A stretch of DNA of 64,000 nucleotides, from the NCBI RefSeq assembly GCF_051622035.1, contig NC_135364.1:1817001-1881000 (forward strand). The letters are read 5' to 3'. This stretch comes from Arctopsyche grandis. Its lineage: Eukaryota; Arthropoda; Insecta; Trichoptera; Hydropsychidae. How positions within the stretch are numbered: position 1 is the stretch's first letter; each line of letters opens with the position of its first letter. A program made the translations under genes and the position numbers. This document shows positions 1,993 to 61,917 of the stretch, one piece after another. A model generated the notes under the pieces. It was not told the DNA's origin and searched no databases. It saw nothing but the letters and a program-made list of their open reading frames with translations.

Positions 1993-4900
1993 ATGTCCGA
2001 ATTCAATGATGTTAACGATCGACATGCAAAAACTATTTTAAAGCGAATGTTTGGCATTTACAAAGAAAAGATGTTGTATAATATCGATTTGGTAGTCGGC
2101 AATAACAAGTTGGTACATTTTATTTACATATATGGTAATTGTCTATATAATATAATAGTACATATTTGAATCAAACGACTTTTTCAGATTCCCAGTGCAC
2201 AAGTTGATACTCGTTACGAATGGCGATTTTTTCGAAAGTAGAATAAATAATACAACCACTGAAATCATTTTGGAAGACACTGATGATATAACCGCGGAGT
2301 CTGTCAAAAAGACAATTAAGTTCTTCTACTTCGGTGAAATTGGTAATTACATATGTAGATCAAAAGAAACCGTGTGTTTTTAAAACATTTAAATACATTG
2401 ATATCCATGGCTTGTATATAGGATTGTAATATAGGTTGTAATATAGGATTGTAAATAGGTTTTTGAGCTCTTTTTCCTATTATGCTTTAGATTGACATTA
2501 GAATAATATAATACTGTGATTACTAACCAAATTAAATTAAATTGTAAAATAGAAAATGATCAGTAGATCAGTAGCTATTAAAATAGATATAAGATGTATT
2601 GTGAATATAATTTCGTAAGAATAAAAAGCATTTAAAAATCAAAAAAATATCCTTGGCTAAATGTTCATTTCAGACTTGCAACTACATCAAGCTGTGAACA
2701 TAATCAAATTCTCCAAAATGATTCAGGTGCGTGAACTCGAAGAATACTGTTTGGCGTACCTCGAAAAAATAAGACACAATAAGAATGCCATTTTCATTGA
2801 AGATTTCGCCAAACAACATGGATATTTACGATTACTCGAGCAAACAAAAGCTTATATTGCGAAGAACTATTTAAAGGTACGCCTTTATGTTATTGATTTA
2901 TATGACATATGATTTGGCATATTGTATTTTGTATCATGGATATCATGGATATAACCACAAAAGCTTTTTCGACTATGTTTGTCATAATATTATCCAAAAA
3001 TCCGATTGGTATGCAGATAATCCAAGAAGATGAATTCCTCAATATGAGTTGTGAACGACTGGGTGAACTTTTACAGTCGGATGATTTAAATGTAGCAAGA
3101 GAAGAGCGCGTGTTTCAAGGATTGAAGATTTGGGTGCAAAATAACTACGAGCCTCGGAAAAAGCATTTAGATACCCTGTTAAAATATATCAGATTACCTT
3201 TGTTACCCGTCCAGGTATTTCCTGCTTCGTGACAAATTTCATAGATAATTCAAATTCGTCTATATTTATTTATAATTTTCCAATGTGAATTTCTAATTTT
3301 TCAGTTTATATTAAACGAAGTGAAGCCACTCTGTTACGATTCATTAATCTGCTGTCAAATGCTGTTGGATACATTCGAATACCGACATAATCCAGAAAAA
3401 AGACCTCTATTACCTTTGCTAAATTCAAAACCTCGAAAATGCTGCCAACAAACTGTATTAATTGTAGGAGGAGAAGATAAAAGTGTATTTATCATATTTA
3501 TTTTCATTTCTTAAAATTACAAGTTAAAGTTTCATTAATAAAGTCCATTTTCAATTTAAGACTTCAGGTGAAATTGAAATATGCGATGCTAACACTGACA
3601 AATGGTCTACATATCATGATTTGGACAATAAAACTACTAATTTTGGGGCTGTCGTGTTAAATAACAAACTAATTACTATGGGTGGTGAATTTGGCGGCAA
3701 AACCACGAACAAGGTACCATTACATAGTTCGATTAATATGTAGCTTTGTGCTTTATTTTAAAATCTAAATCATATGTACGTATACAACGTGATCTATCAC
3801 GCAGATTCCACACATGTTCGTTGGCACAAAAATCAAGTAAATAGATATTTGTCTATTTTGATTAATGTGTGTGTTAAGGTTTAATGGTTAAATCTTGGTA
3901 ATGAATACATTGATTCGTTATTGTATACACTAACTTTTCGTCAAAGTATAAATGGTTTTCTGCGAGATATAATTTAACAATAAATTTCAGGGACAGGCGT
4001 GTTTGACAACTACTCTTGTCATGAGAAAGTTTGACAGTTACCTTCCAAACATAAATTATAAGCTCGATTCAAATTCAACTAATCAATTAAAGTACATGCA
4101 GGCCTTTTTACCTTCCGATGAGGAACCTCTTTTCACGCTTTTTTAATGTTTCACAACAATTACACGAGTAGATATTCGTGCGCATATAATCACAATCCAT
4201 ATTTAGCCATATTTACAATCTATATTTATATATTTGGCCAAAATGGGAAAATATTGTGTCCTTCTGAATGAAATAAAATATTCGAAAAAGGATTAGAAAG
4301 TATAATAACGAGAAGTGCGTTCCAGCATTTTCTTTTTTCAAAAATAGCCCTGACTGTATTTATCTAAATTTATGTAGATCTATAAGTGTAAAAAAATTAG
4401 AAAATACAAGAGTGTGAGTAATAATCAATATAACCATAATCATAAAGAGAATACTAGTTATAATTGAAGCAACTTATTATGCTAGACCAAAATAAGTTTC
4501 CGACCAAACTAGAGGGCCGATGATTACAAAATGATCTCGAAATTCGTAATATCCGAATAGGGTTTCATACAATTGAGGATTTTAAACGTTGATTGCCCAG
4601 ATCTAAATGAAACATTGTTTTAATATTTTGCCAATTTAAAGGTGTCTTGCTTTGATCTCGTCACAAAGGAAACAACAGAATTTCCGGCGATGCAACAAGA
4701 AAGGCGGTTATTTGCAGCCACCGTCAATGATGACCAAGTTTTCGTCATCGGAGGAAGGAATAATAAACAAATTTCGATGAATTCTGTGGAAAGGTTATTC
4801 TCTTGAGTCCAAAATCAATTTTTCTTTTCTTCTGTGTTTAACGACATAATCTACTTTTTGTTTCATTTTTTTTATCGGGTTGATTTTCTAACGGAAAATT

Positions 4901-7048
4901 AATATTTAATAATTCAAAAAAATACATTTTATTAGTTTAACTAATTTATTAACGTGATTTTCGTGACCTCATCTCATCTTTCAACCAGTGGCGAATCAAG
5001 TAAATGGGGGGCCCCAGGCGCATTTGAAAATTGAGGCCCCCCACTTCAGTAAAAATCGGAGTTTTCGTCATCGGAGGACAGAATAATGAAAAAGAATCGA
5101 TAAATTCCGTGGAAAGGTTATTTTTTTCAGTCAAAAATTAATTTTTCGTTCCTTTGGTATTTGACGGGATAATCTATTATTTGTTTAATTTTTTATTGGG
5201 TTGATTTTAAAACGGAAAATAAATATTAACACTTGCTTGCGGGCCAAATCGTAAATGCCCCATGAATGAAATGAAAACATGAATGTGGAAAGGTTATTTA
5301 CTTGATACCAATTTTTTTCCTTCAGTATTAAACGTGATAATCTATTGTTTGTTTCATTTTTTCATCGTGTCAATTTTCTAACGGAAAATTAATATTAATA
5401 ATCTAAAAAGAATAATTTAAAAATCAGAGGACGGAATAATAAAAATTAAACGATAAATTTCGTGGAAATGTTATTTTCTTAAGTCAAAATTTAATTTTTC
5501 TTTCCGTCGGTATTTAACGAGATAATCTATGTATTATTTGTTTCAATTTTTAACCTGGTTGATTTTCTAACGGAAAATTAGTATTAATAGTTAAAAAAAA
5601 TAATAATAAATAAATTTAACTAATTTACTAACGGGATTTTCGTGATCTGATTTTTCTTGACCTCGTCTTATCTTACAACCCGTTTCGATATCCTGCATTA
5701 CTGCTAGCACCCTCCCAAGTGAGGTTTAATTAAGATTTAGTTTAAGACCGTCAATTTATTTAAAATTCAATACTTCACCATTCACCTTCAAAAACATCTA
5801 AAAGACAATTGAGACAACCACGTGGAAATTCTAATTTTATCACTATATAAATGTTAATATTATATTCACAACAATAAAAGTTTCGAAAACAATTACACTA
5901 TTACGTGAAATAACGAGCTTTTTCGTTAATCATTTTGATTTCGATAGAATTTTGCACTCAGGATTCAGAATTATCTACGGTCCATTGTTTGCCAATCACT
6001 AAACTCAGTGTACAAATATTAATAAGAAAAATATTTATTTCAAAATCTAATAAGGGTAGTGCAATCCCTATCGTTCACATAAATATACTATACATTTGCA
6101 CAAATATTAAGAATATAAATAAATAATAAATTTGAACGAATACTCAATATTAATTTACATAAAATGCAAATAATGATGAAGTCGCAATGAAATTTTCCGG
6201 TTTTCATTTCAGGTATGATTTAGTTACGAATACGTGGACTAATGTGGCTCATATGTTGACGCCACGTTGTCATCCTGCAATAGCAGTCGTAGGCAAAGAA
6301 ATGTATGCCATCGGAGGTTTAGACGTTAGTGGTAATACATTAAACACAATGGAAATCTATGATACACAACAAGACAAATGGGCAGCAGCCCCACCAATGA
6401 AAGAAAAAAGAAGTAGTTGTGCAGTAAGAATTCATTGTTATATTTACGTATCCTATGTACAACAGATCGATTTGTATCAATCAGCTTTAAAGACAAACAC
6501 ATCATAATAAAGTCATCTTCGCTGAATACCATTTGTTTCAACTTACAGGCTGTCGCAATGGGAGACCACATTTACGCTATTGGAGGTTGTAACAATACAT
6601 CATCAGTTCTTAAATCAGTGGAGCGATTTGACATCAAGTCTAAAACCTGGACATCGGTGGCCAGTCTTCCTGAACCGAAGTATGGGCACAAAGCGATTGC
6701 TATCGACGAGAAAATCATTTGCGTCGGTGAGTTTCTCATTCATTTAAATACAGTACAAATTTATTTCATTACGTGTGATCGCTCTGAAAATTGTATCGTT
6801 TTATAAATAAGAATTGTTTCTTAATTTAATGTTAATATTAATCAATGTGTCTTTCAGGAGGTCAAAATTCAAAATCAGTGCTGAAATACGATCCAGGCAC
6901 AGACAAATGGACAGAACATGGATCAATTTCAGAACCGCGTTTCCGTTTTAATTTATTACTTACACATGTGCAGATAATGAAGAATGAAAAAATTATGAAA
7001 TGGATATTCGAAAAATACGTATCTTATTTCAATTTTACACAATTATAA
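1993..7048 (+). CDS. KLHL gene A: BTB-BACK-Kelch protein, 10 exons, 578 aa
   Basis: Exons: 1993-2108, 2188-2342, 2674-2876, 3017-3214, 3305-3484, 3561-3713, 4642-4793, 6213-6423, 6549-6726, 6858-7048. They join in frame with GT..AG introns and match the other copies exon by exon. The start is the conserved MSEFN. BTB is about residues 20-125 (KRMFGIY, NIDLVVGNNKFPVHKL), BACK about 130-240 (NIIKFSKMIQ, EEYCLAYLEK, LLKYIRLPLLP), then six Kelch repeats about 275-560 with double glycines in LIVGG, LITMGG, VFVIGG, MYAIGG, IYAIGG and IICVGG. By family knowledge it would be a Cullin-3 substrate adaptor; the target is unknown. Oddities: the stop used by its sisters (AATGAATAA) is changed to AATGAAAAA, adding about 20 residues; the exon 5 donor is weak (AGT|GTATTT), and an alternative pair using CTTCAG|GTG would also keep frame. 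Intron 7 holds copies of part of exon 7. Confidence 0.85.
2413..2646 (+). mobile_element. Short retroposon with poly-A tail in intron 2 of gene A
   Basis: This insert has the body shared with the elements at 12887, 39545 and 41112: it contains TTTGAGCTCTTTTTCCTATT and GATCAGTAGATCAGTAGCTA and ends AATAAAAAGCATTTAAAAATC plus A residues. It is flanked by a 12-base target duplication, ATATCCATGGCT (2401-2412) and ATATCCTTGGCT (2647-2658), with one mismatch. Gene B has the uninterrupted site (10614-10626). This copy has extra 5' sequence made of a repeated TAATATAGGATTG-like motif. I see no clear Pol III boxes, so it may be a SINE or a 5'-truncated LINE tail. Confidence 0.8.
5050..5480 (+). pseudogene. 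Partial duplicates of Kelch exon 7 inside intron 7 of gene A
   Basis: Downstream of the true exon 7 (4642-4793) its second half recurs at about 5058-5116 (GTTTTCGTCATCGGAGGACA through CCGTGGAAAG), then a fragment at about 5285-5300 (TGTGGAAAGGTTATTTACTT), then a more decayed copy at about 5430-5475. The block 5058-5250 matches gene F 54688-54900 far better than it matches gene A's own exon, including the shared phrase CTTGCTTGCGGGCCAAATCG, so it was copied from F or its ancestor. Without an acceptor and first half, none can act as a full exon. Confidence 0.7.
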
Positions 7049-10206: not shown

Positions 10207-13200
10207 ATGTCCGAATTCAATGATGTTAACGATCGACATGCAAAAACTATTTTAAAGCGAATGTTTGGCATTTACAAAGAAAAGATGTTGTGTAATATCG
10301 ATTTGGTAGTTGGCAATAACAAGTTGGTACATTTTATTTACATATATGGTAATTGTCTATATAATATAATAGTACATAATTGAATCAAATGACTTTTTCA
10401 GATTCCCAGTGCACAAGTTGATACTCGTTACGAATGGCGATTTTTTCGAAAGTAGAATAAATGATACAACCACTGAAATCATTTTGGAAGACACTGACGA
10501 TATAACCGCGGAGTCTGTCAAAAAGACAATTAAGTTCTTCTACTTCGGTGAAATTGGTAATTACATATATAGATCAAAAGAAACCGTGTGTTTTTAAAAC
10601 ATTTAAATACATCAATATCCATGGCTAAATGTTCATTTCAGACTTCCAACTACATCAAGCTGTGAACATAATCAAATTCTCCAAAATGATTCAGGTGCGT
10701 GAACTCGAAGAATACTGTTTGGCGTACCTCGAAAAAATAAGACACAATAAGAATGCCATTTTCATTGAAGATTTCGCCAAACAACATGGATATTTACGAT
10801 TACTCGAGCAAACAAAAGCTTATATTGCGAAGAACTATTTAAAGGTACGCTTTTATGTTATTGATTTATATGACATATGATTTGGCATATTGTATTTTGT
10901 ATCATGGATATCATGGATATAACCACAAAAGCTTTTTCGACTATGTTTGTCATAATATTATCCAAAAATCCGATTGGTATGCAGATAATCCAAGAAGATG
11001 AATTCCTCAATATGAGTTGTGAACGACTGGGTGAACTTTTACAGTCGGATGATTTAAATGTAGCAAGAGAAGAGCGCGTGTTTCAAGGATTGAAGATTTG
11101 GGTGCAAAATAACTACGAGTCTCGGAAAAAGCATTTAGATACCCTGTTAAAATATATCAGATTACCTTTGTTACCCGTCCAGGTATTTCCTGCTTCGTGA
11201 CAAATTTCATAGATAATTCAAATTCGTCTATATTTATTTATTCCAAGGTGAATTTCTAAATTTTCAGTTTATATTAAATGAAGTGAAGCCACTCTGTTAC
11301 GATTCATTAATCTGCTGTCAAATGCTGTTGGATACATTCGAATACCAACATAATCCAGAAAAAAGACCTCTATTACCTTTGTTAAATTCAAAACCTCGAA
11401 AATGCTGCCAACAAACTGTATTAATTGTTGGAGGAGAAGATGAAAGTGTATTTATCATATTTATTTTCATTTCTTAAAATTATAAGTTAAAGTTTCATTA
11501 ATAAAGTCCATTTTCAATTTAAGACTTCAGGTGAAATTGAAATATGCTATGCTAACACTGACAAATGGTCTACATATCATAATTTGAACAATAAAACTGC
11601 TGGATTTGGGGCTGTCGTCTTGAATAACAAACTGATTACTATGGGTGGTGAAATTGACGGTCAAACCACGAACAAGGTACCATTCGTTCCATTAATAGTT
11701 TTTAGTTCCATTTAAAATCTAAATCACATGTATGTATGTACCTATTATACTGTATTTTCATTGTGGTGATTTATTCGGCTAGGGTCTACCGACCAATTCG
11801 AAAAGTGGACATTCGTGATATGTGATTTAAGTTTCATACGATTGAGTATTTAAACGTTTACCCAGATCCAATGAAATGCTATTTTTACATTTGCTAATTT
11901 CACAGGTGTCTTGCTTTGATCTCGTCGCTAAGGAAACAGCAGAATTGCAAGGGATGCAACAAGAAAGGCGATATTTTGCAGCCACCGTCATCGATGACCA
12001 AGTGTTCGTCATCGGAGGACGGAATAATAAAAATGAAACGATAAATTCCGTGGAAAGGTTATTTTCTTGAGTCAAAAATATTTTTTCCTTTCCTTCGGTA
12101 TTTAACGAGATAAACTATTATTTGTTTAATTACTCTATCTATGTACATACATAGTAGCAATAGAAGTTTTGTGATCATGCGAAAATTCAAACTCGAGATT
12201 TTGACTGATTGGAACTCGGAATCGATCACTGATCACGTTTTAATAATATAGAAAAATATGTGGGTGGGAAAAATATTTTTTTTGTTGCTCAGTGTAATTT
12301 AAAAAATATATATTTATTTAACTAATTTTTTAACGTGACTTTCGTGACCTCATCTCAAACTTACACCCCTTTCCGATATTCTGCACTTTGGATACTGCTC
12401 GCACCCTCCCAAGTAAGCTTTAATTAAGATTTATTTTAAGACCGTCATTTTATTTTAAATTCAATACTTCATCTTCAAAAACATCTAACAGACAAACCTC
12501 GTGAAAATTCTACTTTTATCACTAACTGATAATATGTATTATATTCATAGCAATAAATGTTTTGAAAACAATTCCACTATTGCACTATTGCGTTTATGTT
12601 TCAATTCCACTTTTGCGTTTATGATTCACTTCGATATCGATTCAGTATCTATTCCTATAGTCTTCCGATCGTTTTGATACTTTGCCATTTTGTGCGCTTT
12701 GGTCAACGATGGAAATTTAAATCGTTTCTGATAGTTCCACCGGGAAAAATAATTCCTAAATCAAATAGATTTCGATAAAATTTTTCACTCGGGATTCCAA
12801 ACGATCTACGGTCCATAGGTTGCCAACCATAAAAATATTTATTTCATATACTATGTATTGAGGGTGGTGCAATTCCCATCGTTCATTGTAAATAGGCTGT
12901 TGAGCTCTTTTTCCTATTATGCTGTACAATAACATTAGAATAATATAATACTATGATTACTAACAAAATTAAATTAAAATAGTAAAATAGAAAATGATCA
13001 GTAGATCAGTAGCTATTAAAATAGATATAAGATGTATTGTGAACATAATTTCGTAATAATAAAAAGCATTTAAAAATCAAAATTAAATTCCCATCGTTCA
13101 TATAAAAATACTATACATACTAAATTCGCAATTACATTTCATTTCAGGTATGATTTAATTACGAATACGTGGATTAATGTAACTCGTATGTTGACAGCAC

Positions 13201-13939
13201 GTTCTTATCATGAAAGTGCAGTAGTGGGGAAAGAAATTTATGCCATTGGGGGATTGGACAATATTGGTAATAGATTAAACACAATGGAAATCGTTCATAC
13301 GCAACAAGATAAAATAACAACAGCCCCAGCAATGAAAGAAAAAAGAAGTAGTTTTGCAGTAAGAATTCATTGTTATATTCTTGAATCCTACAACTGGTCG
13401 ATTTGTATCCATCAGCTTTATAAACAAACATATTACAGTAAAGTGTTTTCGCTGAATACGATTTGTTGCAACTTGCAGGCTGTCGCAATGGGAGACCACA
13501 TTTACGCTATTGGAGGTTGTAATCCATCATCGATTCTTAAATCAGTAGAGCGATTTGACATCAAGTCTCAAACGTGGACATCATTGGCCAGTCTTCCTGA
13601 AATAAGGCATGGGCACAAGGCGATTGCTTTCGACGAGAAAATCATTTGCGTCGGTGAGTATCGCAGTCATTTAAATACAGTTCAAATTTATCTTATTTGC
13701 TGGGCGTTGTGTGATCGTTCTGAAAACTGGAACATTTTATAAACACAAATCGTTTGCTTTTTTTTTAATTTATATATTTATAAATATGTCTTGTTATAAT
13801 TTCAGGAGGTAAAAATTCAAAATCAGTAATGGAGTACGATCCAGATACAGACAAATGGACAGATCATGGATCAATTTCAGAAGCACGTTCCTATTTTAAT
13901 TTATTAGTAGCATCTATGCAAATTATGAAAAATGAATAA
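10207..13939 (+). CDS. KLHL gene B: BTB-BACK-Kelch protein, 10 exons, 558 aa
   Basis: Exons: 10207-10322, 10402-10556, 10642-10844, 10985-11182, 11268-11447, 11524-11676, 11906-12057, 13148-13358, 13479-13653, 13806-13939. All lengths equal those of gene A except exon 9 (one codon shorter) and exon 10, which ends at the normal MKNE stop. BTB about 20-125, BACK about 130-240, six Kelch repeats about 275-555. Exons 1-5 are nearly identical to gene A, while Kelch exons 8-9 differ more (GGLDNIGNR against GGLDVSGNT; GGCNPSS against GGCNNTSS). In Kelch 4 the usual DKW tryptophan is isoleucine (DKITTAP), which may weaken that blade. The stop is followed 16 bases later by AATAAA. Probable role: Cul3 adaptor, target unknown. 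Confidence 0.87.
12887..13086 (+). mobile_element. 200-bp retroposon in intron 7 of gene B, perfect 15-bp target duplication
   Basis: Same family as 2413-2646. It lies between two exact copies of ATTCCCATCGTTCAT (12872-12886 and 13087-13101) and ends in AAAAATCAAAATTAA. Gene A has the matching unoccupied site near 6061 (GCAATCCCTATCGTTCACAT). Perfect duplication and low divergence from 39545-39740 suggest recent insertion after the A/B split. Confidence 0.88.
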
Positions 13940-16090: not shown

Positions 16091-16311
16091 GCTGTAACAA
16101 TGGGAAACCACGAATAAACAAGAATATTTTCTTAATTTAATTTTAATATTAATCAACGTGTCTTTAAATATTTTCAGGAGGTCAGAATTCAAAATCAGTG
16201 CTGAAATATGATCCAGGCACAGACAAATGGACAGATCATGGATCAATTTCAGAACCACGTTCCTATTTTAATATATTAGTAGCACCTACGCACATAATGA
16301 AGAATGAATAA
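16091..16311 (+). pseudogene. Orphan KLHL exons 9 (stub) and 10
   Basis: After an intact acceptor (TTGCAG) the first ~20 bases of exon 9 are present (GCTGTAACAATGGGAAACCA), then the rest of exon 9 and its donor are deleted. Exon 10 follows at 16178-16311 with acceptor TTTTCAG and an open frame from GGQNSKSVLKYDPG to MKNE and stop. Sequence matches gene C exon 10 except Leu to Ile and Met to Thr changes. No upstream BTB or BACK exons exist here, so it is a fragment carried by a segmental duplication of the end of gene C. Confidence 0.85.
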
Positions 16312-18383: not shown

Positions 18384-18936
18384 TATGAGAGTTAAAACTA
18401 TAAATATTTATATATTATAGATAAGGAGAACCAATAGAGCAAATTTCATAAAATATAGAGTGAATTATAGGCGTTTAAACAATTAAAATTGATAAGGCCG
18501 TGTTATGGCGAACAGTTTACGCCTTGTTAAACAACGCTTGTTAAACGTCAGGAAGATTTACTTTCCCTGTTTTTAAAACGCGTTGTATACGATATTTTAT
18601 CTCCAACGTAATGGCAGACGATACATTAACGTGTATTGATGACCAAAATGAGCAATATGGCAAAGTATGAAAACGATCGGATAAGAGATAAAAATGAGCA
18701 CTAACACGAAAGCCATGTGAAACGTAAAGGAGGTAAGTAAAAAGAGGAATTCTTTCGGATTAAGTATGACTCATCGTTATAAAATCTATATATGTTTATA
18801 GATCGACTTGTCAATGCAAATTTATTTTATTAACTGGGCGTTATGTGATCTTTCTTAAAATTGGAACGTTTTTTGAACACGATTCGATTGCTACTTTAAT
18901 GTAAATATCAAGCAATTTAAATAATAATTCTTTTAG
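18384..18936. other. Intergenic stretch, no gene seen
   Basis: AT-rich sequence. From about 18740 (GAGGAATTCTTTCGG) it resumes collinearity with 32705 onward. A palindrome-like phrase TTGTTAAACAACGCTTGTTAAAC occurs near 18525. No coding signal. Confidence 0.4.
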
Positions 18937-19070
18937 GGGGCTTAAATTCAAAATCGATGTTGGAGTACGATCCAGGTAGAAATGAATGGACAGATCGTGG
19001 AGTAATTTCAGAACAAAGTTTCAACTTTAATTTATTACTTGTACCTATGCACATAATGAAGAATGAATAA
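18937..19070 (+). pseudogene. Orphan KLHL exon 10, open and with a good acceptor
   Basis: Exactly 134 bases, like exon 10 of genes B, C, E and F, after acceptor TTTTAG. It encodes GLNSKSMLEYDPGRNEWTD and ends MKNE, stop. The first double glycine of this blade has become Gly-Leu context. It belongs to a more diverged paralogue (RNEWTDRGVIS) than the surrounding copies, so it is the surviving last exon of a lost array member. No exon 9 lies upstream. It could act only as an alternative terminal exon for an upstream gene. Confidence 0.75.
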
Positions 19071-36396: not shown

Positions 36397-36530
36397 GAGG
36401 TGAAAATTCAAAATCAGTGCTGAAATACGATCCAGGCACAGACAAATGGACAGATCATGGATCAATTCCAGAAACACGTTCCATTTTTAATTTATTAGTA
36501 GCACCTATGCACATAATGAAGAATGAATAA

Positions 36531-46000: not shown

Positions 46001-47874
46001 TTTCCTAAAGAGCACACATATGCATTTATTTATACAGGCATATACTCATTTTTACTAACACGACGTCTATTGTCAACATTGTACATAAGTATTATGCAAG
46101 ACCAATTACAAATATCGATCATCAAACATTACAACCATCAAAGACACATCTATGGACAATTTTTTGTAGCATTTTTTAGCATCAACAAATTATGATATGC
46201 TGTGAACTCTCATAATTTTACGAGATATAGGACAGGACTGCCAATTTTTTGGAAATGTTTCCGATGAAATCAGATAAATTCGCAAACTCTGAAAGGAAAT
46301 AATCGACCATTATGTCACAAATCCAAGGTTTGGCCAGCAACAAAGCCAGGGATAGACCCCGTGACCACTCAATCGAATGTATCACACGCTAACACACACG
46401 TTAATCATATAAATAAATAATGCATATGTAGATTGTGCTTCGTAAAAATTAAATGAGAAGATGTTACATAAATAATAAAATTAAAATAAATAGTAAATAT
46501 TAATCCCGAAACTCTAATTTAACATAAAACGAAAATATGTAATGATGTAGTATTAATTTATTTTTCTGTTTTTCATTTCAGATATAATTTTGTTACGAAC
46601 ACGTGGACTAATGTGGCTCATATGTTGACAGCTAGATCTTGTCACGAAATAACAGTAGTGGGGAAAGAAATTTATGCCATCGGAGGTGTGGACAATGGTG
46701 GTAATAGATTAAACACAATGGAAATATATAATATGCAACAAGATAAATGGACAGAAGCCCCATCATTGTCAGAAAAGAGATATTATTTTGCAGTAAGAAT
46801 TATTTTTTTTATTTAAACATTGCTTAACTGATCGGTTTGTATCAATCAGATGTAAAGACAAACATATTACAGCAAAATCGTCTTGGCTGAATACTGTTGC
46901 GTAGTGGTAGGTTGAGGATCCAAATGAAAGGCCAAAGTCGCTTCACAGCATTTATTGAATGATTCAGGAGGTCCACACGCAGCTAGCGCTCGTTCCAGAA
47001 TAAATCTGATGTGGCCTAAGTACCTCATTATAAAGGACAAAGTTGCTCACCACAGCTTCCCAGATCCGTTTATGTATCTATTGTTTAGGCACGTACAGTT
47101 TTGAGTGAGTCTCACGCTCTCATGCTCTTGAGGTCCACACGCAGCCAGCGCTCCCTCCAGAATGATCTCTGATATAGAATGTGAACCTCCTTATAAAAGA
47201 CAAGTCACTCACCACAGCTTCCCCAATATATTAATTTATCCATTGTCTAGGCACGTACAGTTTTAAGTGAGTCTCGCGCTCTCGTGCTCTCTTGCTCTCG
47301 GGTTCTGAGAATTCTAGCGGGTATTTACTGAGTCTCGTCGGGTTGATTCGGGGGGGTCTCCATTGTTCACCCTCGAATTCATTTAGACAGTGGATAATCC
47401 CTCTATTGTGTTGCCACATTACAATAACATATTTGGAACTTGCAGGCTGTCGCACAGGGAAACCACATTTACGCACTCGGTGGTCATGATGGATCATCGA
47501 CTCTTAAATCAGTGGAACTATATGACTTCAGGACTGAAACCTGGACAATGTCGATCAGTCTTGCTGAACCAAGATGGGGACACAAGGTGATTGCTTTCGA
47601 CGACGAACTCATTTGGATCGGTAAGTTTCGCAGGCATTTAAATACAATACGTTGTGTTATCATTCTGAAAAGTCGAACGCTTTATAAAAACGAATCTTTG
47701 GCTAATTTAATTTAAAAATTTCTCGTAATAATAATTTCAGGGGGTGATCAATCCATTACAGTGCTGGAGTACGATCCAGGCACCTGCAGATGGACAGATC
47801 TTGAATCGATTTCAGAACCACGGTTCTATTTTAATTTATTAGCAGCACCTGCGCATCTATTTAAAAATGAATAA
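40014..47874 (+). CDS. KLHL gene E: BTB-BACK-Kelch protein with shortened BACK, 10 exons, 527 aa
   Basis: Exons: 40014-40132, 40208-40362, 40457-40563, 41713-41910, 42016-42195, 42273-42425, 44586-44737, 46582-46792, 47446-47620, 47741-47874. All frames and splice sites hold. Start MSEFNTEYQDQH. This is the most diverged full copy (YPVHKLILV, LLGDILQSDYLN, GGHDGSS, LIWIGG). Exon 3 is 96 bases shorter than in sisters: LAYLRKNYLE replaces about 42 residues, removing the helices that link BTB to BACK, where Cul3 contacts (the 3-box) normally lie. The frame is kept, so a protein is still made in principle, but Cul3 binding could be altered. Kelch blades 1-6 keep their double glycines. It ends LFKNE and stop. 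Introns carry a retroposon, SINEs, a MITE and a solo LTR. Confidence 0.85.
41112..41285 (-). mobile_element. Minus-strand copy of the ~200-bp retroposon, 3'-truncated (intron 3 of gene E)
   Basis: Reads on the minus strand TAAATAGGTTTTTGAGCTCT through GATCAGTAGATCAGTAGCTA to GATGTATTGTGAACATGATT, then stops before the AATAAAAAGC tail found in the other copies. Loss of the 3' end is unusual for an element inserted by target-primed reverse transcription and suggests a later deletion or internal priming. Confidence 0.8.
42480..44560. other. Intron 6 of gene E: diverged repeats, no gene
   Basis: Contains several units of the CCGGTTTA family (TTCCATTTCCGGTTGTCGGA near 43010, ACTACTTCCGGTTTATGAAT near 43135, CCCATTTCCGGTTTATTAAA near 43285, TGCCACTTTC near 43425), spaced about 130-150 bases. 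The rest is AT-rich without coding signal. Confidence 0.5.
45073..45191. mobile_element. hAT-type MITE, 119 bp, in intron 7 of gene E
   Basis: Begins CAGTGGCGTGCCGTGAAAAT and ends ATTTTCATGGCACGCTACTG, inverted repeats over 20 bases with two mismatches. Interior phrases (ACTTACGTGTGCGCGAGCAG, TGACGTCAT) match the MITE at 20666-20834. Flanks do not show a clear 8-bp duplication. Confidence 0.78.
45565..45830 (-). mobile_element. 5'-truncated SINE, minus strand
   Basis: Matches the body and tail of 46020-46400: GGATTGCCAATTTGTTGGAA, ATGGACAAATTTTTGCAGCA, then TATTTATTTTATTTTATACA, a simple AAAT-type tail in minus orientation. The tRNA-like head is missing. Confidence 0.55.
46020..46400 (-). 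mobile_element. tRNA-derived SINE, minus strand, in intron 7 of gene E
   Basis: On the minus strand the head includes GAGTGGTCACGGGGTCTATC and TTGCTGGCCAAACC, then the same body as 38751 (GATTTGTGAC, TCTGATTTCATCGG, CCAAAAAATTGGCAGTCCTG) and a long tail ending CCTGTATAAATAAATG. It gives the full length of the family, about 380 bases. Confidence 0.6.
46895..47423 (-). mobile_element. Solo LTR, gypsy-like, minus strand, in intron 8 of gene E
   Basis: Inverse of the family at 28260: starts TGTTGCGTAGTGG and ends TTGCCACATTACA, flanked by ATAC (46891-46894) and ATAA (47424-47427), a mutated 4-base target. It is longer (529 bases) because an internal segment around GAGGTCCACACGCAGC is present twice. 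It ends 22 bases before the acceptor of exon 9, replacing most of the former branch and pyrimidine region, so splicing of exon 9 may depend on the LTR border. Confidence 0.75.
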
Positions 47875-49801: not shown

Positions 49802-49804
49802 TTA

Positions 49805-51944: not shown

Positions 51945-53645
51945 ATGTCGAAATTCAATGGAAAAGTTCCCGAACAACGTGCTAAAATAATTTTAAGCCG
52001 AATGTTTGACATTTACGAACAAAGTTTGCTGTGTAATATCGATTTGGTAGTCGGAAATAACAGGTTGGTGCATTTCTTCTGTATATACCATTTGCCTATA
52101 TAGTTGCACTTATTTATATCAAACGAATTGCATTTTTCCAGATTTCAAGTACACAAGTTGATCCTTGTTACAAATAGTGATTTTTTCTTAAGTAGAATAA
52201 ATGATACAACCAGTGAAATCATTTTAGAAGACAGTGACGAGATACTCGCGGAGTCTGTCAAGAAGACGATTAAGTTCTTGTATTTCGGTGAAATTGGTAA
52301 GAATATATGTAGGTGAATAGAAACCGTGTGTTTTGAAAACATATATAAACATATCTATGGTCAAAATTTAATTTCAGACTTGCAACTACATCTAGCTGTG
52401 AACATAATCAAATTCTCCAAAATGATTCAGGTGTGTGAACTCGAAGAGTACTGTTTGGCGTACCTCGAAAAAATAAGAGACAACAAAAATTACATTTTTA
52501 TTGAAGATTTTGCCAAACATCATGGATATTTGCAATTACTTGAGCGAACAAAAGTTTATATTGCGAAGAATTATTTAAAGGTACGTCTTAAGTATGCCTT
52601 TATGTTATTGATTTATATGATGTTGTATTTGGTATCATGGATTTTAATATAAACACAAACTTAGCTATAAGCTATAGTTATAACATGACCCAAACCAGTC
52701 CTAATTTTGTCCATTTTATAATCTTAATGCGTTTTTTCCCCTCTTTTCAGGCACCTATTAATGTACACATCGCAACTGCGCATTTTACATACATATTTCT
52801 ACCCTTTTGAAACAATTCAATTTCGATCTTCAAGTGCTTTTTTTTTTCAAAACAACTACATAGAGCTTAAAAGATTTATATAATGATACCACATAAAAAC
52901 TGTGAAATAACTGTGTTTATCATAATATTATCTAAAAATCTGATTGGTATTGCAGATAATCCAAGAAGATGAATTCCTCGATATGAGTTGTGAACGACTG
53001 GGGGAACTTTTACATTCGGATGATTTAAAAATAGCAAGAGAAGAGCAAGCATTTCAAGGATTGAAGATTTGGGTGCAGAAGAATTATGAGTCTCGGAAAA
53101 AGCATTTGGACACCCTGTTGAAATATATCAGATTACCTTTGTTACCCGTCCAGGTATTTCCTGCTTCATGACAAATTTCATAGATAATTCAAATTCGTCT
53201 ATATTTGTTTATAATTTTCTAATGTGGATTTCTAAATTTTCAGTTTATATTAAATGAAGTGAAACCCCTCTGTTACGATTCATTAAGTTGTTGCCAAATG
53301 CTGTTGGATACATTCGAATACCATCATAATCCTGAAAAAATACCTCGATTTACTTTGTTGAATTCAAAACCTCGAAAGTGCTGCCAACAAACTGTATTAA
53401 TTGTAGGAGGAGACGATGATACAGTATTTGTCATATTTATTTTCATTTCTTAAAATTACAAGCTAAAGTTTCATTAATAACGTCCGTTTTGAATTTAAGA
53501 CTTCAGGTAAAATTGAAATTTACGATGCTAACAATGACAAATGTTATACATATCATGATTTGAACAATAAAACTACTGAATTTGAGGCTGTGGTGTTGAA
53601 TAACAAACTGATTACTATGGGTGGTATTACTGATGGTAAAACCAC

Positions 53646-53881
53646 TGGACAATCTTCATGTTGTTATGGTCGCTCCCCACCTAATATTTAATATAAATGT
53701 ATAAACAGAGGGCTACCGACGGGGCACTGCGTTCATTCAATAATGAGTATCAGTTAAACATTCAATAGGTGATGTGCCAATCACCATACACCAGCCGGCA
53801 GTCCCTCTTCTATTTCTTGTAATAAAGGAAAGTAAAACCGACAAGAAAGGAGTCATTATTACTCAATTACAAAGTTTTCCA
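53646..53881 (+). mobile_element. 236-bp solo LTR inside coding exon 6 of copy F, 5-bp TSD ACCAC
   Basis: Starts TGGACAATCTTC and ends AAGTTTTCCA, flanked by ACCAC on both sides (53641-53645, 53882-53886). Sister genes have the empty site AAAACCACGAACAAG. It contains AATAAAGGAAAG near the 3' part, a likely poly-A signal. The 5-base duplication and TG..CA ends fit a Copia or BEL/Pao LTR. It is not related to the gypsy-like LTRs elsewhere in the window. Confidence 0.88.
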
Positions 53882-54879
53882 ACCACAAACAAGGTACCAT
53901 TCGTTCCATTAATAAGCTTTTACTTCTATTTTAAGATCTAAATCATATGAATATAACGCGATCTATTAGGCAGATTCCACATGGTCGTTGACACTAAAAT
54001 AGTGAGTTTGTGTTTTGATCAAATAAATTGAGATTTTTCTTTTTTTGACTGATGTTAATGTTAAAGGGTTAAATCTAACATCAAGTTTTCGTCAAAGTAA
54101 ACATCGCTTCATACGAAAGTGTACATTGACGAGTCAGTGTACGATCGAGCGGAGGATGCCCTCGCTAAACCATCAACGAATAAATTTCAGAGTGTGTTTG
54201 ACAACTAACCTGAGCATAAGAGAGTTTGACAGTTACCTTCCAAAAATCCAAATCTCAAACTCGATTCAAATTCAATTATTAAATATAACAACATATATAC
54301 AGGCTATTTTTAATATTTCAAAAGCAATCAGACTAATCATATTTAGCCATATTGATAAAATAATTTGTATGTACATTTACAAGTCAAGAGTAAAAATTGA
54401 TATTGCCCTAATCAGAAAGAGGATACTATTTTTCATTGTAGCTATTTATTCTGTTAGACCAAAATGAATTTCTGACTAAACTCGAAAGTCAATGATTACA
54501 AAATGATATAAAAATTCGTGAAATCCGAATTGAGGATTAAACGTCAATTGCCCAGGTCAAAATAAAAATATATTTTTACGTTTCGCTAATTTCACAGGTG
54601 TCTTGTTTTGATCTCGTCACAAAGGAAACAACAGAATTGAAAGCGATGCAACAAGAAAGGCACTTATTTGCAGCCACGGTCATCGATGACCAAGTTTTCG
54701 TCATCGGAGGACAGAATAATGAAGAAGAATCGATAAATTCCGTGGAAAGGTTATTTTTTTGAGTCAAAAATTAATTTTTCGTTCCTTCGGTATTTGACGG
54801 GATAATCTATTATTTGTTTAATTTTTTATTGGGTTGATTTTAAAACGGAAAATTAATATTAACACTTGCTTGCGGGCCA

Positions 54880-55408
54880 AATCGTAAATGCCCCTTGCCG
54901 TGTAGCAGGCACAAATCACAGAAATTTTCAAAAATTCCCTTCAAATTATAGAAAATTTCAAAAAAATTATAAAATCTTTTATAAATGACTGTAAATTGAA
55001 CAAAACATTTAAACCTAAAGACTGACAAAAAGAATTAAAATGGAAGTTCTAATGATTATTTTAAGGCTTCTAATTAACCGATTAGTATGAAAAAGGGGTT
55101 ATCTACCCCATTCTTATACAACAAAATTTTTCAACTGAGAAAAAAATCTAAAAAAATTCCCATCATCTTTATGATATAAATTACTTCAAAATTTATAAGA
55201 TAAAATTTTTTTGTACTGGGATAATTACCCTTTTTTTTAAGTAATAAAATTTTTGAATTGAGTTGAAATTTAAAAATATTACTATCATATTTATTATATA
55301 ATTGATTGCAAAATTTAAAATATAATAATTTTTAGGACTAGGGTAACCATTTTTTTTTATCGAAAAAAAAGTTTGAAATTTTTTTTTAAAATATTCCATC
55401 GTCTTTAA
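54880..55408. repeat. Diverged AT-rich tandem repeat in intron 7 of copy F (left part)
   Basis: Units of about 110-130 bases share phrases like GACTAGGGTAACCA, AAAATTTTTGAATTGAG and AAAATATTCCCATCATCTTT. They continue on the far side of the inserted element at 58893-59150, showing that the element landed inside the array. Confidence 0.6.
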
Positions 55409-58400
55409 GGGGGTATTCTAGTCTAAAGGCATACATTTTAGGTATTTTTTCAGGTGCAATAAAAAAAATATTTTTACCATCCATTATTTTACCAAATATT
55501 TATTAATGTTTGAAGAATACATAGAAAATAAAATCAAAGGAAAAAATTCAAAATTCAAAAAGTTACAGGCTGATGAAGTGAGGGGTCTCAAAAAAATGGT
55601 GCGCCCTGGTTGACACGATTCCAACCCTCCTAGTATTCCAAAATCAAAAAAGTAAATTAATTCTTAATCCAAACAAATGCTGCTATGGCATGAACGGTTA
55701 TCGGTGAACAGACGGTCTGTGAAAGAGATGGCTGCGTACGTAATGGCAGAGTAAACGAGATCATGGTGAACAGACGGGGTGAGAAAGAGATGGCCGTATA
55801 TGTAATGCCTGGAGCGCATCCTCGGTTTACGGAAAATCTGTGAACGAGTTGTCGTGTCACCGGCATGAACTACGGAAAAGTCAAACAAAAATTTTTTCGC
55901 AAAATAGCGGCTGTTTGAAATAAAAAGTCTAGTCTTTTACCAGTTTTTTTGACTTTTCCGAATTTTTTAAAAATATTGAAAATTGGAATTTTGTCATAGT
56001 TCTAGTTCATGCGATAGAGGAATGTATAGAGAAGGCTCACACCAAATTTCAAGTAAATTGGTCCGATCAGCGATCATCTATACATCAAATTTACAATAAA
56101 AAATTGCCAAAAGAAGACAAAAAATAAAGCACTCGAAGGGTGGGCAGTCAGGAAATTGGACGCACCAGCACTCGAAGGGGCCATAGCGCTCAAGAGAGAG
56201 ACTGTTTTCAATGGTGTATCTGGGAGAGGGGCTGAAGAAGTTACTCAATCGCTCAACGACCTTTTCCGCTTTGCTTGCAACGCCTCAATGCCCAAGCTTG
56301 GCAGCGGCGTGCGTCGACCCCCAGTGTACTGGTGGAATGACGGGATAGCAGAACTCCGACGGAAATGCACAGCTTGTCATCGCAGGATGCAACGACATCC
56401 CGACTGCGACGAGCGACGTCAAGCGTATAAAAAGGCTAGAAAGGCTTTGCGCAACGCAATCAAGAGAAGCAAATCGCAGTGCTGGGAAGAGATGTGCAAC
56501 TCTGTCAACGCCGATCCATGGGGTACACCTTATAAGATTGTGAGGAGGAAACTTCGGCGATCGATAGATGATCCTTACCTCAACAACCAATCAAATCTGG
56601 AGATGGTAGTTGATGGACTCTTCTCGACCCGGGAAAATTCTGACGTCATCGTCAGGAGAAATATGGACAATGATGTAACCGAACAAATACCCATCTTTAC
56701 TGACGAGGAACTAAACATGGCTGCCAGACGACTACAGACGAACAAAGCCCCAGGACCGGACTGCGTCCCAAACGCAATCATCAGACGGGTCGCTGACTCA
56801 GATCCTGCACTACTACTTGCAGTATACAACTCTTGTCTGACAGAAGGGACGTTTCCTTCTTCTTGGAAGAGACAAAGATTGGTACTTATTCCGAAGGGAA
56901 ACAAGGTCCAGAATAGCCCATCTGCATACAGGCCGCTTTGCATGCTGGACGGACTCGGCAAGCTTTTGGAGAGACTGATTCTCCAGCGGCTACAGAAGTA
57001 CCTTGAGGATCCTACGAAGGGACTTTCGCCACACCAGTTTGGCTTCCGCCCGGGGCGCTCGACAATTGAGGCAATACAACAGGTCATTGACACTGTTAAG
57101 AAAGCATGGGAGGGAAGTGTCAAAGCAAGCGGGCATGTCGTGATGATTGCACTTGATATTAAGAATGCATTCAACTCAGCAAAATGGAACCTGATCCTTG
57201 AAGCGCTCCAAAGAATTGAGACACCAGCATACTTGGAGCGGATAATCAAAAGTTATCTTTCGGACAGACAGCTGGAATACAACTGTAATGGCATTCAACG
57301 ACAGCGAACGATCACGGCAGGCGTTCCACAGGGCTCGGTACTTGGACCTGCACTGTGGAATGTCATGTATGATGGTCTTATACGTGTTCCATTTCGCCCA
57401 GAGGCGAAGATAGTTGCCTTCGCCGATGATGTAGCATTGCTAGTTGCGGCGAAATCTGTAGAACTCTTGCGAGCTATTTGTGAAGACTCGATCGGAAAGA
57501 TACGGAGATGGCTGTCGAACGCTGGATTGGAATTAGCAGTTCAAAAGACTGAGGCCGTGTTCTTCACCAGACGAAGGAAGTTAATACCGCCGCAACTCTT
57601 CATCGACGGGCACGAGGTGAAATATAATAGATCGATCCGATACCTGGGAGTATGGATCGATGACAAACTTCGCTTCACTGTACATACAGAAAAGGCGGCG
57701 GCAAAAGCAGCAGGAGTTGCCGAAGACTTGGCCAGGTTGATGCCCAACATAGGAGGACCCAAAACAAACAGAAGAAAACTTTATAATGAAGTAGTCCACT
57801 CGGTTCTGTTGTACGGCGCTCCGATATGGGCGGATGCAATGACAACGGAAAAGGCGAGACTCAACATAGCAAGAGTTCAGCGAAGAAGTGCGCTAAGAGT
57901 TGCTGCTGCATATCGCACGGTATCCGAAGCAGCCATCCTTGCAATAACAGCCATACCACCCATCGATCTGCTCGCAGAAGAGCGGAAAGCGGTCTACAGA
58001 GGGGAGCAAAAAAATGACTCAAAAGAAAGAACTATGTCTTTGTGGCAGACTCGATGGGATGCGTCAACTAAGGGTCGGTGGACCCATCGACTCATCAGAG
58101 ACCTGAGGGTTTGGAGCCGGATAAAACATGGTGAACTGTGCTTTCACCTAACTCAAATTATAACAGGACATGGCTGCTTCGGAAGCTATCTGCACAAGAT
58201 AGGAAAAAGAGCAACACCAGGATGTCATCACTGCAGTGCAGAAAACGACGATGGTGAACACACTGCATTCGATTGTCCAGCATGGAACGTACATAGAACC
58301 AATCTAAAAATGAACTCGGTGTTAACTCATTAACGATGACTAACATGATTCCTGCTATGCTTGAGAGTGCAGAGGCGTGGACAGCGTGCACTACGTTTGC

Positions 58401-58888
58401 AGTATGCATCATGCGGGAGAAAGAAGAGGCAGAACGCGATCGAGAGAAAAGAAGTCGGACTTTGTAAAATGACGAGAGCCTATATGGCTATCCTGGCTGC
58501 CACCCTTGAGCAATACTTAATTAGTAGCCGGGTGGTAGCTGAAGAGGAGGGGGGTTTTAGTGGGTAAAAATCCCACACTACCACCGGAATTAAACACGTC
58601 GGTGGTGTCTTCTAGAAGATTTCCCCCCGCCGGAAAAAAAAAAAAGTAAATTGGTCCAGTATAACTTGAGATATCATGTCAACCGTCTCGAAAAAAGTAG
58701 TTTCGAGAAAAACGCGTTTAAAGTTTCGGGTTAGCTTACGTGCCGGTCAGATGCCACGTCACTAAAGCAGCTATATCTCCGAAAATAATTGGAATTTTAA
58801 AAAATCCTCTTTAGGACATACATATTCTAAAAGGTTTAAGCTTTAAAAAAAAATTGATTTCTTCAAATTTCTAGACTTGAATACCCCC
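55409..58888. mobile_element. piggyBac-like MITE with TTAA target, split by a LINE
   Basis: Begins GGGGGTATTCTAGTCTAAAG and ends CTAGACTTGAATACCCCC, inverted repeats of about 17 bases, flanked by TTAA on both sides (55405-55408, 58889-58892). TTAA duplication is the mark of piggyBac-type elements. Without the LINE (56065-58643) the element is about 0.9 kb and has no transposase. Confidence 0.75.
56065..58643 (+). mobile_element. 5'-truncated R1/I-group LINE with long open ORF2 part (725 aa from 56156)
   Basis: Flanked by an exact 14-base target duplication AAGTAAATTGGTCC (56051-56064, 58644-58657). From 56156 one frame runs to 58333. It includes a pre-RT segment (WWNDGIAELRRKC), reverse transcriptase with NKAPGPDCVPNAII, FGFRPGRSTIEAI, ITAGVPQGSVLGPA and catalytic AFADDVALLV (about residue 420), a C-terminal region, and a zinc-knuckle-like CHHCSAENDDGEHTAFDCPAW split over about residues 690-711. 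A single frameshift near 58315 cuts off the last ~50 residues, which continue in another frame to 58467. The endonuclease is missing. The 3' end carries AGTGGGTAAAAATCCCACAC, TAGAAGATTTCC and poly-A. GC content and codon use are much higher than in the host, which marks a recent arrival. Confidence 0.9.
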
Positions 58889-59404
58889 TTAAGCTATAAA
58901 TAATTGTAAAATTTAAAATAAAATAAACTTTTGGACTGGGGTAACCAAACTTTTTTTATACAACAAAATCAGATATGTCTTTGGGCTATAAATGATTGCA
59001 AAATTTGATAATATTTTGACTAGGGTTTTTTTATACAAAAAAAATTTTCAAGTTGGAAATAAAATTTAAAAATATTCCCTTTGTTTTTATGCAATAAATG
59101 ATGACAAAATTTAAAATAAAATATTTTTTTGGACTAGGATAACCAACCATTTTATTTGCAAGTTGCAATTAAATTTTCCGGTTTTCATTTCAGGTATGAT
59201 TTAGTTACGAATACGTGGACTAATGTGGCTCATATGTTGACACCACGTTCTTATCATGCAATAGCAGTAGTAGGGAAAGACATTTATGCCATTGGAGGTG
59301 GGGAAGACTCTAATAGTCATTTAAACACAATGGAAATCTATAATACAGAACAAAATAAATGGACAGCAGCCCCACCAATGAAAGTAAAAAGTGATGAAAT
59401 TGCA

Positions 59405-61455
59405 GTAAGAATTCATTTTTACTTTATCTATGTACGTACTAACTATATATGAGGTTATGTGGTCATGCGAAAATTCAAACTCGGGATTTTGACTGATTCG
59501 AACTCAGAATCGATCACTGATCACGTTTTCATGATCTAGAAAAGATATGTATGTGTGTGTGTCTGTGTATTATGGAGACTTAAACACACGAAGTAAAACT
59601 AAATTGGTAAATCGGTAACTGAAGTTCTTATCGATACGACGAAAAGTTTACGATAATATATATTTCCGGTCTTTAAAAAAAGACCGGAAATGGTACCTCT
59701 CTGGTCAGTTTTTGATCCTGGTAGATTCATCTCGAATTCTCTTTTTTAAATTTGCAAGAAAGATCCAACTCAATTTTAACAATTGTCTATCATAAATGTA
59801 AATCGGTATGTCACCTATGACCAAATTAATATCTGGCAGGGACGTCATTTCAGCTTTTTCTTAGGGGGGGCAGGCAAAAATTGGTCAAATTGATTTTGAT
59901 TTTTTTTTATATCGGAATAAAAATGGAAAATATTCTTTGCATACATCTCATTGAGTTTTAAAATATAAAAAAATAATCTTATTTTTGAAAAAAGAATTAT
60001 AAAAATATTATGTAAAAAGACAATAAAGAAGGTTCGTAAAAATGCGAAATATTTTTTCCAAAAATCTTCACATGGTCAACAAAAATCATCCGTCAAACTG
60101 TGTCACTAAAAAACTATAAATTAACTTAATTTCTACCCATTGTCTTTTTACTTTTTCTATATACATACATGTGTACGTAATGACAATAGATGAAGTTTTG
60201 AGATCATGCAAAAATTCAAACTCAGAATCGATAACTGATCACGTTTTCATAATCTAGAAAATTGTGTGTCTGAGTGTGTGTTTCTGATTGTCTGTTTTTT
60301 TATTTTTATAATTTTATATACGTATGTACATATGTATGTATATATAAAATTATTTTTATCTCAACTGGAAGTAGTACTTTTACCCTATAAGATCGAGGTG
60401 TTTTTATGTTTTTCTTGGAAGCTTTTTGGCGTATTGAACTGATATTTCATATCTAGAATTATAAACTTAATGCCAAGTTATATATAAAATTTCGTGAACA
60501 CCCGTTAACCGACAGTGGCAGTTTACCGGATTTTTCTTTACCACACCCCTGAACGTATCAAGCTGAAAATTTATATTTGTATTCTTTGTGTATTAATATT
60601 GTTACGTACGCCGTGGATTGAGCGAATTGTACTTAGACCAACGGATATCTGTTATCGGATTAACTAAATGCATGCACTTACTTCCAAAGATTATATCTGG
60701 ACTCTAAGTGCATTTAGGCTAAACAATGACCGTTATTAGTTATTTCTCTGAATCGGTACGGGAAGACCCAATGTCTTGGAAATACATATCCGAATACGTG
60801 ACTATACAACAGGTAAACAGATTAGGCGTCCTGAGAGATCTACCCTTTATAAGGCGGTACGTAGGCGATATAATTCATTCTGGACTTAGCAGTGACACTG
60901 CGTGTATCTCCTTAATCATCAATAAATGCTGTGAAACGACTGTTGGCCTGTTACTTGGATCCTCCACCCACCCCTACGCAACAATATTGATAAGGTTTTA
61001 GTCAGAAAGCAATTTTATTAAATAACTAAATCTTCTTGCAATTGTATTTTCGGTTCCGTTAATTCTACGAAGGGAAGTCATAAATAAACGACCTTTCAGT
61101 TGTAAATAAAATGAGGTGGACCTTTCTAACAATTCGCTCCACAGGTCGAACTGCAAATCGGTATGGCACCTGTGACCAAATTAATATCTGGTCTTTGACA
61201 CATGATTGCATACAACCGGCCGCGAAACCTACTGCTGGAAATGCTCGCGCTCTAAAATGGCGTAATGTTTCATTCTCGAATTTTGTTTTTTATCGTTCTT
61301 ATATTTCTCAAATACATAGATAGAGTCGTGAGTTGGTCACATCCGAATATTTTTACTAATGAATCCTATAACACCGATTTGTATTAATGAGCTTTAAAGA
61401 CAAACACACCACAGTAAAGTCATCTATGCTGAATACCATTTGTTGCAACTTGCAG
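59405..61455. other. Intron 8 of copy F: repeats and a solo LTR, no gene
   Basis: Contains two related segments (59455-59560 and 60190-60300, phrase AACTCAGAATCGATCACTGA) that also occur at 12165-12260, a perfect short hairpin TTTCCGGTCTTT/AAAGACCGGAAA (59666-59691), and CTGGAAGTAGTACTTTTACC units of the CCGGTTTA family. The solo LTR at 60600-60984 is listed separately. Confidence 0.45.
60600..60984 (+). mobile_element. Solo LTR, gypsy-like, 385 bp, ATAT target (intron 8 of copy F)
   Basis: Starts TGTTACGTACGCC and ends CCCCTACGCAACA, flanked by ATAT (60596-60599, 60985-60988). Shares the 3' part AATAAATGCTGTGAAACGAC and CTTTATAAGGCGG with the LTR at 28260 but differs in the 5' part, so it is another subfamily. 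A short open frame inside it (60726-61001) is not a gene. Confidence 0.8.
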
Positions 61456-61917
61456 GCTGTAGCAATGGGAAACCACATTTACGTTATTGGAGGTTGTAAT
61501 TGGACATCGGCCATTAGATCAGTGGAGCGATTTGACATAAATTCTCAAACCTGGACATCTGTGGCCTGTCTTCCTGAACCAAAGCAGAGGCACAAGGCGT
61601 TTGCTTTCGACGAAAAAATCATTTGTGTCGGTGAGTATTGCAGTCATTTAAATATGTACAGTACAAATTTATCTCATTTACTGAGTGTTGTGTGATCGTT
61701 CTAAAAATTGTATCGTTTTATAAACACGAATCGTTTATTAATTTAATGTTAATATTAATCAATGTGTTTTTAAATATTTTCAGGAGGTGCTGATTCAAGA
61801 TCAGTGCTGAAATACGATCCTGTCACAGACAAATGGACAAATCATGGATCAATTTCAGAACCGCGTTCCTTTTTTAATTTATTAGTACCACCTACATACA
61901 TTATAAAGAATGAATAA

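Follow-up and report, generated by a model that had tools for sequence, protein, structure and literature searches.

A tandem array of KLHL-type genes in the caddisfly Arctopsyche grandis with variable loops on one face of the Kelch propeller

We analyzed a window of 64,000 nucleotides from the caddisfly Arctopsyche grandis (contig NC_135364.1, positions 1,817,001 to 1,881,000), which carries six tandem BTB-BACK-Kelch units of the KLHL type, named W1–W6 in order. The Kelch loops that align with the ligand-contacting face of KEAP1 differ from copy to copy, and natural selection appears to have altered them at a rate above that of neutral DNA. Gene structure, open frames, the ratio of nonsynonymous to synonymous substitution (dN/dS) at individual sites, the placement of the variable positions at KEAP1 contacts by alignment and the mosaic composition of the exons were read directly from the genome. 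With high confidence, we explain them by a tandem KLHL array in which copies would arise by unequal crossing-over, the pocket loops would evolve under positive selection and exons would be swapped between paralogues.

Variation and selection on the propeller face

By their Pfam and PDB matches, the array proteins are KLHL proteins with the domains in the order BTB, BACK, Kelch. The Pfam scan covered W1 and W5, to which the remaining copies align throughout. W1 scored 41 bits for BTB (cut-off 20.5), 93.4 for BACK (20.9) and 211.3 for Kelch_1 (20.1); the W5 scores of 38.5, 79.4 and 184.8 were all above cut-off as well. The Kelch_1 matches of W1 fell into five separate stretches, those of W5 into four. 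By alignment, W1 has six repeats, seen as six BC loops after the double glycine (GG) and a C-terminal DA/strand segment, with the last KEAP1 strand lying outside the alignment used. The best solved relative of W1 was KEAP1 (chain 6wcq_C), spanning W1 residues 39–540.

The sequence-only reading of this DNA had proposed Cul3 substrate receptors. The domain architecture agrees with this proposal, while the phi-x-E motif, which we take to bind CUL3 together with the 3-box, is only half kept: its E is present in 21 of the 21 genes analyzed. CUL3 binding is likely, and the proteins probably serve CUL3 ubiquitin ligases as substrate adaptors in the cytosol. No N-terminal signal peptide or hydrophobic N-terminus was apparent by eye in the 21 proteins. 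This result and the constraint that retains BTB-BACK leave very little probability for secreted effectors acting in another organism, although in plant feeders such expanded and positively selected families are often salivary.

The 21 genes are the 25 subfamily copies described below minus those at 1792, 1851 (W4), 1937 and 1577 kb, in which exons or the reading frame are missing. We divided the Kelch loops into BC (after GG), DA (the three residues after the blade arginine) and the opposite AB and CD loops. BC and DA presumably build the NRF2-binding face of KEAP1, with AB and CD on the other face. Since knowledge of KEAP1 guided the class limits but the alignment was visible when they were set, we added a second set, the columns that align with 17 contact residues of KEAP1; the sets overlap, as 16 of these columns lie inside BC or DA. 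Seven of the 17 residues are presumed contacts. The other 10 are named in PMC4506958, the list coming in part from a complex of KEAP1 with a small molecule. This origin, and KEAP1 as the closest solved relative, would fit KEAP1-like sensing, in which pockets diversify toward different small molecules or stress signals. KEAP1 senses electrophiles mainly by cysteines outside the propeller, however, and we regard such a role as improbable.

Mean column entropy was 2.02 for BC and 1.91 for DA, as compared with 0.81 for CD, 0.58 for AB, 0.64 for the blades, 0.61 for BTB and 0.57 for BACK. The pooled BC and DA value of 1.98 against 0.72 for AB and CD (p = 5e-5, the floor of 20,000 permutations) places the loop variability above chance. 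Hypervariability had been proposed for the residues right after GG; it is real there, but it is not confined to them, as the three residues after the blade arginine vary equally. In dN, every one of the 12 face loops (0.45–0.83) exceeded every one of the 11 opposite-face loops (0.03–0.25), a complete separation with a chance of 7e-7 if loops are exchangeable. The KEAP1-contact columns formed the most variable group, with an entropy of 2.51 versus 0.81 for the other 260 Kelch columns (p = 8e-11), a dN of 1.03 and a dS of 0.49. Their contact fingerprints were different in all 21 genes; the closest pair, W1 and its upstream neighbor, differ by one residue.

The Nei–Gojobori (NG86) dN/dS over the 210 pairs of the 21 genes was 1.61 (1.22–2.13) for BC, 1.47 (0.74–3.08) for DA and 1.56 for both. 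Elsewhere it stayed at 0.35 (AB), 0.42 (CD), 0.38 (AB and CD pooled), 0.59 (blade), 0.37 (BTB) and 0.38 (BACK). On gap-free columns, with gaps judged without W5 and the copies on contig C2, BC gave 1.52 and DA 1.32; gaps were therefore not the cause of the high ratios.

A maximum-likelihood (ML) codon model written for this analysis, in which each exon had its own tree and rate scale so that recombination would matter less, yielded an omega (dN/dS) of 2.31 for the face across the 21 copies, versus 0.50 for the opposite face, 0.49 for the blades, 0.44 for BTB and 0.47 for BACK. It replaced a first fit with a single global rate scale (face 1.96, opposite face 0.42), because there the exon rate was confounded with omega. 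An omega of 1 at the face was rejected with a doubled log-likelihood difference (2ΔlnL) of 141.3, and for BC and DA alone with 110.5 and 64.2. In a shorter fit the real data gave 138.5, while 40 simulations under a face omega of 1 gave at most 3.85, with estimates of 0.89–1.13. The comparison of models M8 and M8a (2ΔlnL = 310.5) assigned 11% of the sites an omega of 3.27. Posteriors above 0.95 (naive empirical Bayes) were reached by 32 of 552 sites: 24 of the 54 on the face, 4 of the 223 in the rest of Kelch and 4 in BTB and BACK. Among the KEAP1-contact columns, 11 of 17 passed this limit. These fits are approximate in two respects: the exon trees were built with nucleotide models that also took in the sites under selection, and in the site mixture the rates were kept at the class-model values.

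The substrate part (2.31) is under positive selection and the cullin-binding part (0.44 and 0.47) under constraint, with the caveat of p = 0.031 explained below. The sequence-only reading had named two outcomes that would speak against it, namely loop ratios below 1 and equal to the blade cores, or variable sites away from the binding face. Neither was found: the loop ratios exceeded 1 and were clearly higher than those of the blade cores, and the sites aligned, in sequence, with the KEAP1 ligand contacts.

Relaxed constraint, by which the loops would vary since nothing depends on them, was rejected by the ML face test at the exon's own rate, by the null simulations and by intron divergence. 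The short introns (six types pooled) diverge by d = 0.270, near the Kelch dS of 0.276, and the face dN of 0.61 is higher than both. Loops generally tolerate change, and three of the six window units are damaged or altered; the AB and CD loops nevertheless remain conserved, and we hold this explanation to be very improbable.

Several results weigh against selection on a CUL3 adaptor pocket. The NG86 interval for DA alone (0.74–3.08) includes 1. Eight of the 32 selected sites lie off the face (2 in BTB, 2 in BACK, 3 in blades, 1 in CD), and 6 of the 17 KEAP1-contact columns fail the posterior limit of 0.95, two of them with 0.18 and 0.00. The hydrophobic phi of phi-x-E occurs in 1 of 21 genes. 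With a free synonymous rate at the face, an omega of 1 at a 2.19-fold local rate was only marginally worse (2ΔlnL = 3.5, p = 0.031), so that the exclusion of a higher local mutation rate goes no further than this level.

This marginal rejection counts in favor of local hypermutation or conversion, which would lift all substitutions in the loop codons, and so does an NG86 dS somewhat higher at the face (0.39) than in the blades (0.23). The free ML estimate of the local synonymous rate at the face was, however, 1.01 of that of the exon. Four-fold sites differed in 0.236 of face pairs versus 0.202 in the rest of Kelch, with overlapping intervals, in a comparison that conditions on shared amino acids and hence leans low. 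We know of no mechanism that would hit only twelve short, separate loops of one face. Selection is preferred because of the local rate of 1.01, the lack of a clear four-fold excess and the intron divergence of 0.270 against a face dN of 0.61; we disfavor hypermutation as very improbable rather than reject it. With the p = 0.031 caveat, the proposed diversifying family is supported.

Array structure and exchange between copies

The six units lie on the + strand with collinear exons A–J (splice-aware annotation). The array runs in the window from the ATG of the first unit at 1993 to the end of the final exon J at 61917. Each gene follows a ten-exon plan with GT–AG introns and constant phases. 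The array had been recognized from the sequence alone, and its coordinates, single strand, collinearity, shared exon plan and quoted loop residues all hold. The claim of six copies stands for the units but not for complete genes: only W1, W2 and W3 are both complete and open, W5 keeps an open frame with a BACK deletion, W4 is truncated and W6 is without a splice donor. The residues quoted after GG are correct, but GG is not in every blade, as blade 4 of W3 reads EG. The features are as follows.

1993..7048, + strand: KLHL unit W1, 10 exons A–J, 578 amino acids, open
1993-2108, 2188-2342, 2674-2876, 3017-3214, 3305-3484, + strand: W1 exons A–E
3561-3713, 4642-4793, 6213-6423, 6549-6726, 6858-7048, + strand: W1 exons F–J
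5060..5121, + strand: partial copy of exon G (end of blade 3) in the W1 G–H intron
10207..13939, + strand: KLHL unit W2, 10 exons, open
16177..16296, + strand: orphan last exon (J), downstream of W2
18936..19040, + strand: orphan last exon (J)
20109..20163, + strand: 55-base fragment of a fourth last exon (J)
24042..31624, + strand: KLHL unit W3, 10 exons, open, EG in place of the blade-4 GG
32908..33003, + strand: orphan last exon (J), downstream of W3
34375..36530, + strand: KLHL unit W4, exons D, E, F, H, I and J only (without A, B, C and G), frame lost after F
40014..47874, + strand: KLHL unit W5, 10 exons in frame, BACK domain short of 32 codons by an in-frame deletion
40457-40563, + strand: W5 exon C, shortened by 32 codons inside BACK, exon end placed by hand
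51945..61917, + strand: KLHL unit W6, 10 exons, reverse-transcriptase open reading frame in the G–H intron

W4 is probably a pseudogene. The 32 BACK codons lost from W5 fall in the region that we take to hold the 3-box of KLHL proteins. W6 has TC where the GT donor of exon F (53500-53652) is expected and is probably damaged. A second exon-G piece of 51 bases lies in the W1 G–H intron at 5424-5474.

Exon-by-exon comparison of the copies showed that the nearest relative changes along the genes. W1 is closest to W2 in exons A–E (97–100%) and to the gene at 1810 kb upstream in exons F–J (99–100%); the switch falls between window positions 3407 and 3671, in the region where exon E ends and exon F starts. 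W1 sits between these two relatives, the position expected of an unequal-crossover product, and it looks like a hybrid of its neighbors formed in this way; an assembly error is possible. The gene at 1965 kb is closest to the one at 1914 kb in exons A–C and G, to W6 in D–F and to the one at 2187 kb in H–I. The pairwise homoplasy index (PHI) test on 261 third positions gave p = 0.002, the floor of 500 permutations. Exons E–J each bear one to three BC or DA loops or loop parts. With the loops spread in this manner and with fixed exon boundaries and phases, exchange at introns can move pieces of the pocket in frame.

These findings suggest how the array may evolve. New copies would arise by unequal crossing-over in a tandem array of mostly open KLHL-type genes, and positive selection would replace residues chiefly in the loops of the degron pocket, BC and DA. 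BTB/BACK, the blade cores and the opposite face would be held under constraint, and recombination between paralogues would swap pocket segments as in-frame exon modules, making new pockets.

Other repeats were seen in and around the units. The segments 16114-16403 and 31427-31716, 15.3 kb apart, hold the orphan last exon with its flank and the last exon of W3, and are 99% identical; the orphan is probably the remnant of a segmental duplication. The 5' flanks of W1 and W2 are duplicated as well (96.5% alike), each with a reverse-transcriptase fragment on the - strand (923-1813, with a Pfam match, and 8960-9938). The frame in the W6 G–H intron (56057-58333, + strand) is an open 758-codon reverse transcriptase (RVT_1), non-LTR (lacking long terminal repeats) by its look. 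At 63010-63999 (+ strand), an open frame with a DUF4371 match runs off the window; this domain presumably occurs in relatives of hAT-like transposases. At 17630-18220, within a GC-richer stretch, lies a tandem array with a 15-base spacing and a step of 97 bases, in which several reading frames are open on either strand.

Family size and other arrays

A genome search with exon D, in which 150 of the 301 candidates were scored, found at least 25 places of the subfamily with an identity of 77% or higher, all on contigs C10 and C2. In 19 of the 25 copies all ten exons are present, the splice sites and the frame are correct and no stop interrupts the sequence; W5, with its one hand-set exon end, is counted among them. 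Twenty-five copies in one subfamily amount to a large expansion, as in adaptively evolving families of ubiquitin adaptors. Haplotype duplication as the source of the whole set was ruled out, as it cannot explain a median amino-acid identity of 0.71 among the 21 copies. Two copies on C2 (393 and 499 kb), 95–100% alike per exon, may be haplotype duplicates.

Genome-wide, BACK had at least 151 matches at E ≤ 0.001 (150 of 340 candidates scored), those listed exceeding the curated cut-off, and Kelch_1 at least 150 (150 of 1,288 candidates scored). These totals count exon matches rather than genes; one gene may match through several exons, and a BACK match does not require Kelch.

A second large KLHL array on contig C8 (1.98-3.71 Mb) has the same variable-loop pattern. 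Its sample comprised 19 blade-4 exons (5 + 14 loci, the partial L008 omitted), of which 14 fit the fixed pattern and were analyzed, with 5 dropped. In these 14 exons the same loops vary and the strands between them are constant. ML gave an omega of 3.05 for the face and 0.40 for the rest, with 1 rejected at the face by the likelihood test without simulations (2ΔlnL = 34.75), and the face dN of 0.835 was twice the dS of the rest (0.416). The NG86 ratio with local dS, a further counterpoint, was only 0.89, and 0.51 in a first sample of six sequences. In the C8 array the variation falls in the same places, with less certainty about selection.

Other clusters were seen as well. Thirteen places on contig C188 (3.9-111 kb) had an identical score for another BACK exon, 53% identical to the query, with 4 more on C41 and 6 on C2 (31-117 kb); they reflect either the very recent multiplication of another KLHL-like gene or an artefact of assembly. 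On C2 at 26.04-26.23 Mb, nine BACK matches with fairly even spacing and near-identical scores form another young tandem array.

Possible drivers and known systems

The proteins are most likely cytosolic adaptors with continually changing targets. We infer that the genes are expressed, that the products act in CUL3 ligases and lead to the degradation of targets, and that the changing set of targets is the selective agent. Whether this is an arms race or paralogue specialization, as the sequence-only reading had put it, cannot be separated from one genome. We rank foreign proteins first among the possible drivers, as a serious candidate that still falls short of probable. In such intracellular immunity, the adaptors would catch viral, intracellular bacterial or mobile-element proteins for destruction; the targets would escape and the pockets would follow. 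The concentration of positive selection on pocket residues, a different pocket in each of the 21 genes down to a closest pair one residue apart, the second array with the same variable loops and the N-terminus without a signal peptide apparent by eye are consistent with this role, and nematode F-box adaptors are read likewise in PMC8665587. Any other kind of target that changes rapidly would produce this trace as well. Next comes genomic or reproductive conflict, or quick specialization of paralogues onto the animal's own fast-evolving proteins, free of any pathogen. Exon-level mosaics fit it, and tandem clusters with quick turnover are typical of conflict families, but nothing specific in this data set points there, and we consider it possible, if on the unlikely side.

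We tentatively propose that this animal lineage has turned the KLHL family into an intracellular recognition repertoire: probably more than 100 CUL3 adaptors spread over several arrays, every adaptor with a degron pocket of its own, positively selected at KEAP1-contact positions and reshuffled by exons, which would capture changing foreign proteins for degradation. Since the KLHL degron pocket is structurally well understood, the array offers a natural mutational series of such pockets. It raises the questions of which proteins each pocket binds and whether a ubiquitin adaptor can serve as a fast-evolving intracellular receptor.

That ubiquitin adaptors can diversify adaptively is already known for F-box proteins and, reportedly, for MATH-BTB proteins. 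A narrow search, covering few subscription journals, found no report of it in BTB-BACK-Kelch genes; this is weak evidence of absence.

Compared with KEAP1 and the KLHL family, the array proteins share the domain order, the alignment to 6wcq over W1 residues 39–540 and the match of the BC and DA loops with ligand-contact positions. They differ in that one subfamily alone has 25 copies here and that the pocket is the evolving part. PMC4033408 gives 6 BTB-BACK-Kelch genes for silkworm, 7 for fly, 7 for bee, 10 for beetle and 6 for monarch.

The likeness to the F-box and MATH-BTB families lies in the lineage-specific expansion and in a constrained cullin-binding part next to a fast substrate part. 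Nematode and plant members of both families are reportedly under adaptive evolution, according to Thomas (2006, in Genome Research). For C. elegans F-box genes, PMC8665587 describes dN/dS peaks above 1.5 toward the substrate end in 73 of 95 paralogue pairs, with the F-box constrained. In contrast to these families, the adaptor fold is another one here, and selection is pinned down to twelve short loops of a single propeller face.

Plant NLRs and similar systems are repertoires with modular recombination of recognition segments. The present array resembles them in its tandem arrangement, in positive selection on contact residues and in its hybrid genes; unlike them, it is built on a ubiquitin-adaptor fold, with defense as a candidate role.

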